Origin: Bacteroidales bacterium
Lineage (GTDB): Bacteria > Bacteroidota > Bacteroidia > Bacteroidales > UBA932
Assembly (NCBI GenBank): GCA_017458265.1
Contig: JAFTFV010000049.1
Span: forward strand, 1-36,544
Direction of reading: 5' to 3'
DNA length: 36,544 bases
A program made the translations under genes and the position numbers. The notes beneath the pieces are model-generated. The model was not told the origin of the DNA. It ran no database searches and saw nothing but the letters and a program-made list of their open reading frames with translations. Of the stretch, positions 28,754 through 32,459 are shown piece after piece; within the stretch, counting starts at the first letter, position 1, and each line of letters begins with the position of its first letter.

Positions 28754-29592
28754 TACACAATATCTTTGAATCTGTCCGGAATGCGGACAATTATCTTGAG
28801 GCCGAACATGGCCGGTTTATTGAGCGCATATGGAGGACGGACCAGAGTCTGACAAATGCGGGCGAACTTTGTCCAACGCTCAAAATTCCTGGCCTTCAGA
28901 TTGGTAGCAAGCCTGATGGTGCGCGAACGCTTTTTCATGTGCTTTCCCCAGCCCTGGGCAAGGCGGTCCTTATCATTGAAGCGGTCCTCCAGCCTTTTCA
29001 TGTCAAAATAGCCGAAATGCAGAAGATAAAGATCCTTTACGATATGGAAATTGTGCCCCTTGATCCTGTGGAAACCGCTTCCCCAGCGAAGAGGTTCGGC
29101 AAGGATGGAAGGCTTTGTATACCGCGTGCCGATCTGCGCATAATGCCTCTGCTGCAGGAACGGCCTGTCCTCCGTAATACTGTCCTCTTCTCCCAGTTTC
29201 TGGCCGAAATCCAGCCCCAGACCTGACGCAGAGCCCTTTATCTTGAGACCGCTGAGGTACTCTGCGAGGGTTTTCCCAAGTTTCGGGTCCACCACGATAA
29301 TCTCATCGGCATCCACGCCGATAACAAGGTCATAGCCGTCGGAAAGGAGATGTGCGGCCTTCTCAGAGAGAAACTTGAGCCTTCCCTTCTCTGCCGACAC
29401 AACCTGCGTGCCGATTTTGGGCACCAACTCTGTATGTGTCCCGTCACAGAACGGGGCTATAACCTGGTCGGTTCCATCAAAGTAGATGAACAGATTCTCC
29501 TTCCCTCCAAGCTGTGCGCCGTAATACTCCACCCATTTTTTCAGGTAGAAGTCGTCATTGCGGACCATGGTGATGGCTGCTATCTTTTTCAT
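28753..29592 (-). CDS. Glycosyltransferase, GT2-like (Glyco_tranf_2_4 type)
   Basis: The 279-residue protein begins ITMVRNDDFYLKKWVEYY (7-24), the classic start of this GT-A subgroup, and has the metal-binding DADEI (94-98) after YDLVIGV. The C-terminal third is basic, which may help it associate with the membrane. Its ATG overlaps the uvrA stop as ATGA, so it seems to depend on uvrA transcription. Donor sugar and linkage are not predictable. No promoter was found just upstream. Confidence 0.85.
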   Translation of the reverse strand: MKKIAAITMVRNDDFYLKKWVEYYGAQLGGKENLFIYFDGTDQVIAPFCDGTHTELVPKIGTQVVSAEKGRLKFLSEKAAHLLSDGYDLVIGVDADEIIVVDPKLGKTLAEYLSGLKIKGSASGLGLDFGQKLGEEDSITEDRPFLQQRHYAQIGTRYTKPSILAEPLRWGSGFHRIKGHNFHIVKDLYLLHFGYFDMKRLEDRFNDKDRLAQGWGKHMKKRSRTIRLATNLKARNFERWTKFARICQTLVRPPYALNKPAMFGLKIIVRIPDRFKDIV

Positions 29593-32459
29593 AGGTATTG
29601 GGCTGTAAAGGTTTTTCCTTGTTTTTTAAGTTCTTCCGGGGTGCCGGCAAAGACAACTTCTCCGCCGCGGTCTCCGGCATCGGGGCCAAGGTCGATAATC
29701 CAGTCTGCGCTGCGGATCACATCCAGGTTGTGCTCTACTACAACCACGGTATGTCCGCTGCGTATGAGTGCGTCAAAAGCCTTCAGAAGCTTTTCCACGT
29801 CGTAGAAATGAAGGCCGGTAGTGGGCTCGTCGAAGATGAAGAGTATCTTCTCCTTCCTGGAGGCATTGCCGCTCATGGAGAGGAAACTTGCAAGCTTTAT
29901 TCGCTGGCTCTCTCCTCCGGAAAGTGTACTGGAACTCTGTCCAAGCTTGATATAGCCAAGGCCTACGTCAACCAATGGACCAAGTTTGCGGGCAATCTCC
30001 TTCGCCTCCGGTTCGCTCTGGGAAGCGAAGAATTCGATAGCCTCGTCAACGCTCATGTTCAGGATGTCGTCAACGTTCTTTCCCTTGTAGCGCACCTCCA
30101 GGATCTCAGGCTTGAAGCGCTTTCCGCCGCAGGAGTCGCAGACCATGGTGACATCTGCCATGAACTGCATGCCGATCTTCACGACACCGTCTCCCTGGCA
30201 TTCCGGGCAGCGGCCGCCCTCCTGGTTGAAGGAGAAATACTGAGGCGTGAAACCGTTGATCTTTGCGTACTGCTGCTCCGAGAGAAGCTTTCTTATATCG
30301 TCATAGACCTTGAGATAGGTTACGGCATTTGAACGGGTGCTCTTGCCGATGGGATTCTGGTCTACATACTCCACCCTCGTAATGCGGGAGAGGTCTCCCT
30401 CCAGGCCTTTGAACGTGCCGGGAAGGTCTCCGGTTTCATTCAGGCGCCTGTGCATTGCGGGATAGAGGATATCCCCCACAAGGGACGATTTGCCGCTTCC
30501 TGAAACGCCGCTCACAACTGTAAGGGCATTCAGCGGGAAACGCACGTCTATGTCCTTGAGGTTGTTCTGCATTGCTCCCTTTACGGTAATGGAATACTGC
30601 CAGGGATTCTTTTCACGCATGTATTGCCGCCTTACCCCTGTAAGGTACTGCAGTGTAATTGATTTGTCAACCTCCTTTGCCGATGCCTTCCCTGCAACAC
30701 CCTGGAATACCACCTCTCCTCCGTCCACGCCTGCATAGGGGCCAAGGTCTATGAGGCAGTCGGCCGCCTTGATGATTTCGCTGTCATGCTCAACCACGAC
30801 AACAGTATTGCCGATGTCCCTGAGGCGCCTCAGCACCTCGATGAGCCTGTCGGTATCCCTTGGATGCAGGCCGATGGACGGTTCATCCAAAATGTACATG
30901 GAACCCACCAGGGAACTGCCAAGGGCCGTCACCAGGTTCACCCTCTGGCTTTCACCGCCGGAGAGAGTGTTCATGGTTCTTGACAGCGACAGGTAGCCAA
31001 GGCCAACATCCTCGATGCAGCGGAGACGGTATACAATCTCATCTATAGCCTTCCCTGCAATTTCCCTCTCTGTCATTCCGAGCGAAGTCGAGGAATCTCC
31101 TGTCAGATTCTCGAAGAACTTCAGCAGCTGCTCCACCGTCATGGAGAGCAGTTCGTGTATGGTTTTCCCGCCCACGCGCACGTACAGGGCCTCTTTCCTG
31201 AGGCGGCTGCCGCCGCAGGAGTGGCATGTGGTACGGCCGCTGTAGCGGTTGAGCATATACTTGTACTGTATCTTGTAGCGGTTTTGCTCCACCCACTCGA
31301 AGAACTCGTTTATGCCACAGATTGTGGATTCATCAGGCCAGTTCGCCCTGGAATCCCAGAGGATGCGTTTCTGCTTATCGGTAAGCTTGCAGTAGGGTTC
31401 GAAGATGGGAATGCCGTATTTCTCTGAGTTCTTGATTACCAGATCCTTGAAATAACTCATCTTCTCCCCTCTCCAGCATGCGATGGCGCCGTCATAGATG
31501 CTCTTTGTCTTGTCCGGGACAACCAGGTCTTCACTGATGCCGACTATCTTTCCAAGGCCGCCGCATACAGGACATGCCCCCAGCGGGCTGTTGAAGCTGA
31601 AAAGGTATTCATCCGGCTGCCGGAACGTTATCCCGTCCTTCTCGAACCTGGAACAGAAATGCTTCATCGCCCTGTCTGTCATTCCGAGCGAAGCGCCCTC
31701 TGTCATTCCGAGCGAAGTCGAGGAATCTCCTACCTCATAAACATACATATCCCCCGCCCCCTTTCCAAATGCATCAGTCACTGATGTCCTAAGGCGCATG
31801 AGAAGGTCATCGTCCGGTTTCTCCGGGACCTTGAGGCGGTCAATGAGAAGGAGCAGCCCTTCCGGGTATTTCCCATCCATCTGTAGAACTTCCTCAATAG
31901 TATAGATGGTTCCATCGGCAAAAAGACGGCTGTAACCTTCTTCCTTGAGTGAAAGGAGGTATTCGACCTTGTCCTTGCGTGAGTTCCAGGAGATATCGGC
32001 AAGGATGTAAACCGCGTGCGGTGTGCCGTCCGTAAGGGTTTTCACCACGTCCTGGACGGTGTCGGCATGGACTTCCTCACCGCTCACGGGAGAGTAAGTT
32101 CTGCCGATGCGCGCAAAAAGGAGGCGCAGGAAATCATATATTTCCGTGGTGGTGGCAACGGTCGAACGGGGGTTCCTGACGTTGACTTTCTGTTCTATGG
32201 CTATTGCAGGAGGAATGCCTTCGATTGTCTCCACGTCCGGCTTGACCATCCTGCCCAGAAACTGCCGGGCATAGGAGGAGAGGCTTTCGGCAAAACGGCG
32301 CTGGCCCTCGGCAAAAAGGGTATCGAATACAAGTGAGGATTTGCCGCTTCCGGATATGCCTGTCACAACAACCAGTTTGTTACGGGGAATCTCCACCGTA
32401 ATGTTTTTGAGGTTGTTTACCTTCGCTTTCTTAATTATGATATTTCCTTCTGCGGGCAT
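29589..32459 (-). CDS. uvrA: Excinuclease ABC subunit A with two repeat-derived insertions
   Basis: UvrA (956 residues from the ATG at 32459) is the damage-recognition ATPase of nucleotide excision repair. Both ABC modules are intact: Walker [10 protein letters not shown] (34-42) and a second GVSGSGKSS, signatures LSGGESQR in both halves, zinc ligands CPVC (296-299), CHSC (412-415) and the C-terminal CPEC and CDSC pairs. The first half-finger normally near 269 has only one Cys (FCSRF), so that zinc site looks incomplete. Two extra peptides are seen: about 244-262 ([12 protein letters not shown] then ASLGMTD) and 454-464 ([11 protein letters not shown]), both encoded by a palindromic DNA repeat read in one frame. 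The earlier TTG at 32510 is rejected because it lies at the -33 box. It is the first gene of a run of glycosyltransferase genes. Confidence 0.96.
31068..31101 (-). repeat. Palindromic repeat inside uvrA, copy B
   Basis: The plus strand reads CTCTGTCATTCCGAGCG then AAGTCGAGGAATCTCCT; the 34 bp are identical to part of copy A. The ends ATTCC and GGAAT form an imperfect inverted repeat around a 12-nt centre. In the uvrA frame it encodes [11 protein letters not shown] (residues 454-464). Confidence 0.9.
31677..31731 (-). repeat. Palindromic repeat inside uvrA, copy A (full unit plus partial unit)
   Basis: A full unit at 31698-31731 is identical to copy B, and an 18-nt partial unit (TGTCATTCCGAGCGAAGC, 31677-31694) is placed directly beside it in the same orientation. 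In the uvrA frame they encode [11 protein letters not shown] and SLGMTD (residues 244-262). The reading frame is kept across both units. Confidence 0.9.

Follow-up and report, generated by a model that had tools for sequence, protein, structure and literature searches.

Among described short palindromic repeats, those closest to the element reported here are the repetitive extragenic palindromic (REP) sequences with a CGTC or TGTC tag, which Di Nocera et al. (2013, PMC3733652) found in five phyla, Bacteroidetes among them. The same paper places in-frame units in the uvrA genes of Opitutus terrae and Thioalkalivibrio and in the uvrB gene of Rickettsia conorii, and puts forward a mutator hypothesis for REPs; GTAG-tagged REPs are thought to be mobilized by REP-associated tyrosine transposases (RAYTs), and CGTC REPs have no dedicated transposase (PMC3733652). 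Rickettsia palindromic elements also stand in frame in unrelated conserved genes, and a Gmk modified by one was reported to be active (PMC2229807, PMC10969869). Here we analyse a 36,544-nucleotide stretch (contig JAFTFV010000049.1 of assembly GCA_017458265.1, a Bacteroidales bacterium; 'the window') in which a 34-bp unit occurs twice in frame in uvrA. This unit is very probably a member of a dispersed, TGTC-tagged, dyad-symmetric REP-like repeat that sits in frame in conserved enzymes and persists in loops that tolerate it. The host genus would be Candidatus Cryptobacteroides, and many of the congeneric records come from the rumen or gut of ruminants.

The uvrA frame runs from an ATG at 32459 to the end of its stop codon at 29589 and translates with no internal stop. 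The gene and the repeat units within it are as follows.

29589 to 32459, minus strand: uvrA, 956 amino acids, intact frame, identified by translation, by the Pfam domains UvrA_inter and UvrA_DNA-bind, and by phmmer matches to solved UvrAs.
31068 to 31101, plus strand: 34-bp unit, site 2, giving SSTSLGMT at residues 456–463 of the minus-strand uvrA; common to the relative G057.
31698 to 31731, plus strand: 34-bp unit, site 1, giving SSTSLGMT at residues 246–253 of uvrA; not in G057.
31677 to 31694, plus strand: half-unit TGTCATTCCGAGCGAAGC, spaced 21 nt from the site-1 full unit, encoding ASLGMT at residues 256–261.
31673 to 31726, minus strand: 54-nt stretch (18 codons) missing from G057 uvrA, which is the extent of the site-1 insertion in the alignment.

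The 34-bp copies at the two sites are identical to each other. A first-pass annotation of the window, made from the letters alone, had reported this identity, the coordinates of both copies and of the partial unit, and the shared uvrA frame and peptide, all of which were borne out; the peptides fall inside the residue ranges it gave (244–262 and 454–464). It had also placed both inserts in variable loops, and the alignments agree. Site 1 lies between the UvrA interaction domain (residues 137–241) and the DNA-binding domain (residues 310–369) delimited by Pfam, with residue 246 directly C-terminal of the former, and both inserts are gaps in phmmer alignments to the solved structures 3pih and 2r6f, with a 6-residue gap at residue 456. 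The P-loop and LSGGE motifs are intact in these alignments. Because the frame is preserved, we infer that the insert peptides are translated as part of UvrA and that the modified protein stays active. In G057, the nearest relative found, a 96% identical UvrA has the residue-456 element, and a gap of exactly 54 nt marks the missing residue-246 element. Neither copy is present in the remaining 28 aligned congeners, some of which have other inserts at the two sites. Relatives thus lack these residues, and the unit is common in the genome (below), so that neither of the two outcomes named in the annotation as refuting its reading occurred.

The annotation had likened the unit to a dispersed repeat, and it is one. 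Its core is TGTCATTYCGAGCGAAGTCGAGRAATCT. Searching the 2.13-Mb genome that contains the window (G000) with the 26-bp core at up to three mismatches gave 57 sites, split 25 to 32 between the strands, and a reversed control pattern gave 0 sites in the same genome under the same search, which excludes chance. In this genome the window is contig C12; another contig, C20, is listed with an equal length of 36,544 bases, by coincidence or through bookkeeping. The conserved core amounts to 28 bp with sharp edges. Both uvrA copies have TGTC ahead of the core, as do the 29 exact matches to the 28-mer in G000; the last two bases of the core are CT or CC, and the sequence beyond varies, with no CCA tail. 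Across 61 genomes (our own and 60 congeners from a larger group), a search at up to two mismatches of the Y/R pattern found at least one site in 27, with 62 sites in G057, 57 in G000, 35 in G051, 22 in G026, 18 in G005, 17 in G006, 11 in G037 and at most 8 in each of the others; the element was not found in 34 of the 61 genomes searched, many of these being incomplete.

The uvrA element has a perfect stem of 5 bp around a 12-nt centre, and its symmetry is kept across copies that differ in sequence. Among the 57 G000 copies, stem pair 6–21 is C–G in 17 and T–A in 40, and pair 7–20 is C–G in 54 and T–A in 3, none being unpaired at either; pair 5–22 is T–A in 55, C–G in 1 and unpaired in 1, and the first two stem positions hold complementary A and T in all 57. 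The G000 subtypes differ in both arms simultaneously. This co-variation is not a product of the search, in which one uncompensated change costs less than a double change. The symmetry is established by co-variation among copies and not by folding energy (random uvrA windows frequently contain stems longer than the 5 bp of the unit), and it is no less compatible with a protein-binding dyad than with a hairpin. The palindrome described in the first-pass annotation is confirmed, with the qualification that its hairpin would be weak.

In layout, the unit appears most closely related to the CGTC/TGTC-tagged REPs, a group that the first-pass annotation did not name, with which it has in common the TGTC tag, the paired A and T at the start of the stem, intragenic units and the lack of a tied transposase (PMC3733652). 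Head-to-head pairs, predominant in that superfamily, were seen here in two individual cases, the MurB copy and the uvrA of G051. It also resembles them in the genes entered, namely two places of an excision-repair gene, as in Opitutus, Thioalkalivibrio and Rickettsia conorii, together with tRNA synthetase and pseudouridine synthase genes. CGTC REPs have stems of 8–9 bp around 4–5 nt, whereas the uvrA element has its 5 bp around 12 nt, and it is without their mostly-CCA unpaired tail; 8-bp stems like theirs are present in other families found in congeneric UvrA loops (PMC3733652). Because these stem, loop and tail features fail, we call the uvrA element a variant and not a member of the CGTC superfamily. 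GTAG REPs are likewise short tagged palindromes, single or paired and sometimes intragenic, but their tag is not TGTC, and here no RAYT gene is clearly flanked by the element (PMC3733652). The comparison with Rickettsia palindromic elements, drawn in the first-pass annotation, holds for the kind of element, an in-frame palindromic repeat in unrelated conserved genes, and not for the family, as those are ~105–150 bp and the unit here is 28–34 bp (PMC2229807, PMC10969869). In-frame REPs in uvrA were already published in 2013 for other phyla (PMC3733652), and our searches of open-access full texts listed no paper that appears to deal with such elements in Cryptobacteroides. Here, the same protein loops are struck repeatedly across related species, and, unexpectedly, the repeat is near-invariant amid changing surroundings.

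The annotation held that the repeat is usually noticed between genes, which proved only partly true, since 24 of the 57 are embedded, in frame, in a total of 22 genes recognised by Pfam. To find them, we trained a codon model on long open frames of the window, used it to score the frames that span the copies, and then ran Pfam on 26 candidate frames and UvrA. Two copies each are carried by uvrA and a beta-galactosidase gene (one copy of the latter divergent), and one copy each by the genes for MurB, DapF, MetG, TruA, prephenate dehydrogenase, PBP1C, peptidase M3, peptidase M20, PolyA polymerase, a SpoU methylase, an amidohydrolase (HutI-like), GT2, GH43, GH3, MATE, MFS, MBOAT, a TMEM260-like protein, an NTP transferase and an HU-domain protein. 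Outside the 24 are a copy near the C terminus of a Peripla_BP_2 gene, a copy just upstream of the likely start of a Cons_hypoth95 gene, and four copies in long frames without a Pfam match. Apart from the two in uvrA, the 24 in-gene copies of G000 (22 copies) are all in genes that Pfam does not mark as DNA repair. The sixth frame of the core contains a stop, and the five open frames were used 15 (encoding VISSEVEKS), 5, 2, 1 and 1 times, which departs from even use (chi-square P = 7 × 10−6).

Left halves of the element, TGTCATTTCGAGC, repeat upstream of it with a period of ~21 nt, and their number varies between G000 and G057. Comparing the two genomes within 100 nt of shared copies, we found length differences beside 9 of 16 in-gene copies (21, 27, 42 or 48 nt), every one a multiple of 3; the 15 shared copies elsewhere gave 10 differences, and only 5 of these were multiples of 3. 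These multiples of 3 beside in-gene copies support translation through the inserts. They also argue against the idea that the inserts are removed from the RNA or bypassed by the ribosome to leave a protein without them, as a stretch that is removed needs no multiple of 3. Beyond the high DNA identity described next, which would be expected of a self-acting signal, nothing was found in favour of removal or bypass, and the in-gene copies are open and in frame (in a search able to find open copies only); we regard it as extremely unlikely.

Shared copies have hardly changed while their surroundings have. At 23 loci shared by G000 and G057, we found 3 changes in 598 core positions, against 2,339 in 21,539 (10.9%) in the flanks; choosing copies by similarity to the consensus (at most three mismatches) lowers the observed divergence, and we estimate that ~40 changes would still be expected in these loci. 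Random 26-bp windows from the same alignments had a mean of 66 changes and a minimum of 35 in 5,000 draws. Copies inside genes and elsewhere were similarly frozen (2 of 338 and 1 of 260 positions). Realigning eight gapped cases added seven shared loci with one change, uvrA site 1 being the absent eighth, for a total of 30 shared loci and 4 changes in 780 bp of the 26-bp core; C29_118922 was excluded as a divergent variant, and its inclusion gives 31 loci and 5 changes in 806 bp. Divergence returns to 7–10% within ~5–10 bp of the element edges. The counts of TTTC-type sites at 0, 1, 2 and 3 mismatches (29, 10, 2 and 1 in G000; 35, 11, 1 and 1 in G057; other subtypes set aside) drop steeply within the three mismatches searched, such that few decayed copies are seen.

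One way to account for this is that each copy is a functional DNA site, a dyad for a dimeric protein that is selected at nucleotide level at each place and tolerated in genes by a lucky frame, which is possible if on balance unlikely. The few changes at shared loci, the sharp drop at the element edges, the similar conservation in and outside genes, the locus-specific variants kept in both species, the co-varying stem pairs and the scarcity of decayed copies all speak for it. However, single sites are dispensable, being absent from UvrA and peptidase M3 of relatives, and none was found in the 34 genomes mentioned above; the site is putative and without a known binding protein; the selection of copies by consensus similarity itself lowers divergence; and in another family, the orthologous pair in loci L098 and L100, ~4 of 75 positions had changed (by eye) against 7.3% for the gene, that is, at about the gene's own rate. 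Between these orthologous elements of L098 and L100, at uvrA site 3, both arms have changed together (GA..TC to GG..CC), and the stem is maintained. A broader form of the functional-site reading, in which a putative protein-binding dyad would act genome-wide under nucleotide-level selection both within and between genes and the ~21-nt half-unit arrays would serve as its tuning, we put forward as a rather doubtful proposal.

Gene conversion among copies, by which concerted evolution would keep the elements alike, is disfavoured and seems improbable to us. Copies are nearly identical within a genome, and at larger distances the subtype at MurB, the MFS gene and TruA differs between species by paired changes, which indicates that replacement or compensatory change occurs. 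But the 30 shared loci retain their own subtype in both G000 and G057, down to single-base private variants; the locus-specific variants GCGGAG, GCAAAG, GCGCAG, GCGTAG and AATCC are retained in both. Conversion strong enough to clear away new changes should have erased these.

Relatives provide both filled and empty sites. When the 57 G000 copies were compared with the stretches fetched from G057, 32 aligned across the copy, 3 on one flank only and 22 not at all. Among the 32, only uvrA site 1 is cleanly absent in G057; at C27_60646, C34_9339, C60_13161 and others, G057 has the complete element, and what differs is how many half-units accompany it. The peptidase M3 element is absent from all 10 other orthologues aligned, including that of G057, and an element of G005 is missing in G037. 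In these last two genomes, a 2.7-kb stretch around a shared element (L387/L370) is 98.8% identical against a difference of ~12% in uvrA, possibly a recent exchange.

We next consider how often UvrA loops are occupied in the genus. We aligned 110 uvrA sequences (107 different), made up of 30 loci and 80 loci kept among relatives, of which 77 are titled Bacteroidales or Bacteroidia and three Candidatus Cryptobacteroides. One of these last, L134, is identical in its uvrA core to G053, a genome listed in the genus of the window, and on this basis the window would belong to Candidatus Cryptobacteroides. Some other matches, several of them fragmentary, were left out. None of the 110 has an internal stop. 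Removing 3 identical sequences and 8 at core distance 0, as second copies from genomes already represented, left 99. We counted tagged elements, defined as a GTCAT tag with a stem of at least 5 bp. Two further loops, empty in the window, come into play.

30660 to 30692 (approximate), minus strand: site 3 loop, about residues 590–600; empty in the window genome, whereas 14 of the 99 distinct uvrA genes from congeners carry a tagged element here.
31800 to 31815 (approximate), minus strand: site 0 loop, about residue 216; empty in the window genome, whereas 3 of the 99 distinct uvrA genes from congeners have a tagged match, one of them weak (5-bp stem).

With 4 tagged elements at site 1 and 8 at site 2, the four loops hold 29 occupancies in 22 genomes. 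Control windows held a tagged element in 8 of 1,834 cases, and 8 of the 99 genes had a tagged match outside the four loops, every one with a stem of 5–6 bp. The families in the loops differ, comprising that of the window (class A) and types with 8-bp stems that start GTCATTCCCGG, GTCATTGCCGG and GTCATGGCCG. On a FastTree tree built without the insert columns, and with gains and losses kept together, the minimum number of changes was 3, 3, 5 and 10 for sites 0 to 3, and 16 when all 22 rows were combined. Loops are reused in MurB and TruA as well, in 11 aligned genomes each (some listed loci, namely one truA fragment and a second M3 copy, were left out of the tree and of the MurB, M3 and TruA work). 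In the published cases the genes of a functional category were entered at different sites, except for recB of two Xanthomonas, whereas here the same UvrA, MurB and TruA loops are reused by several families and sites are empty in relatives (PMC3733652).

Under a strict criterion (an 8-bp stem or a class A match; best 30 loci per gene, those longer than 3.4 kb cut down to roughly the matching part and the rest taken in full), elements were found in 8 of 30 uvrA loci, 1 of 30 for uvrD and 0 of 30 for both hisS and a C1 peptidase (Fisher P = 5 × 10−5 against the pooled controls). These counts establish UvrA, though not the class of repair genes, as a frequent target. By the longest stem, a stem of at least 7 was present in 5 of 12 inserts against 11 of 240 windows at site 2 and in 7 of 10 against 11 of 200 at site 3, a clear excess, and in 8 of 32 against 70 of 640 at site 1, a modest one. 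Ordinary variation of the loop may account for many of the length variants at site 1, and for this reason only tagged elements were counted in the loops. For tagged elements, chance or native loop variation is rejected by the copies across the genome, the 54-nt gap and the loop and control counts.

Two further kinds of insert were seen in congeneric UvrA. At site 1, L105, L106 and L107 carry 67–71 extra residues made up of recurring palindromes of the GGACCAGGTCC type, which belong to another class of repeat. Past about residue 148, L124 has a 32-residue tandem peptide rich in His, Asp and Gly (THDGTHAHDG...), unlike the palindromic inserts.

Mobilization in trans of the unit, as a non-autonomous REP, by a host RAYT (Y1, HUH) transposase is the mode proposed for GTAG REPs (PMC3733652). 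Y1_Tnp matches occur in 46 of the 61 genomes, one of them, a 314-residue open frame, in G000. The class A copy nearest to this gene is in the neighbouring GH3 gene, ~1.1 kb away. A GTCAT-to-AT palindrome with a 5-bp stem overlaps the Y1 start codon in both G000 (L172, 1866–1905) and G057 (L182, 1739–1778), and among 12 Y1 loci from congeners, L071 carries in its flanks a tagged palindrome of another family with an 8-bp stem. Yet among the loci retrieved no second copy of the start-codon palindrome was found; this palindrome, of ambiguous kind, may bear on the regulation of the Y1 gene itself or on the recognition of REPs. Two of the three G057 Y1 loci are without any such palindrome, as are nine of the 12 congeneric loci, and the 5-bp palindromes of L066 and L067 look like chance. 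In addition, the tag is TGTC instead of GTAG, and the numbers do not track, G044 having seven Y1 matches and no element. We consider such mobilization rather unlikely.

The most probable reading remains a dispersed REP-like repeat that persists in tolerated loops. Insertion may be roughly indiscriminate, with copies that break the frame or the fold being lost, such that survivors would be concentrated in surface loops and in frames giving polar peptides; those in UvrA would be translated within an active enzyme. Since shared copies have accumulated almost no substitutions, it appears to be the DNA sequence and not the peptide that is kept, perhaps as the binding site of a dimeric protein. Several points weigh against this reading. 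Single-strand folding of the unit gave energies no better than those of shuffled sequences, the hairpin being weak, and a stable hairpin is rejected on that ground. The 4 changes in 780 bp are not explained by neutral junk. No Y1 transposase is clearly tied to the element at the G000 locus, the three G057 loci or the 12 congeneric loci, which does agree with the report of CGTC REPs without a dedicated transposase (PMC3733652). Relaxing the criterion to a 5-bp stem makes the controls less clear-cut, with 11 of 30 loci for uvrA, 8 for uvrD and 3 each for hisS and the C1 peptidase, and so the contrast of uvrA with the controls rests on the strict criterion. For the 22 G000 copies without a fetched G057 partner and the 3 aligned on one flank, the G057 state was looked at only for peptidase M3. 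Finally, as far as titles show, the genomes are metagenome assemblies, many incomplete.

Repeats inside proteins are a natural experiment on where proteins tolerate added residues. In Cryptobacteroides, close species with filled and empty UvrA, MurB and TruA loops make tolerance, gain and loss measurable, and the 2013 idea that REPs favour repair genes is testable here, where UvrA is over-hit and UvrD gives one strict case in 30. The near-frozen shared copies raise the question of what keeps a supposedly junk repeat. If the genome-wide putative binding dyad proposed above were true, a DNA-level signal would in places dictate the amino acids of unrelated enzymes, UvrA included.

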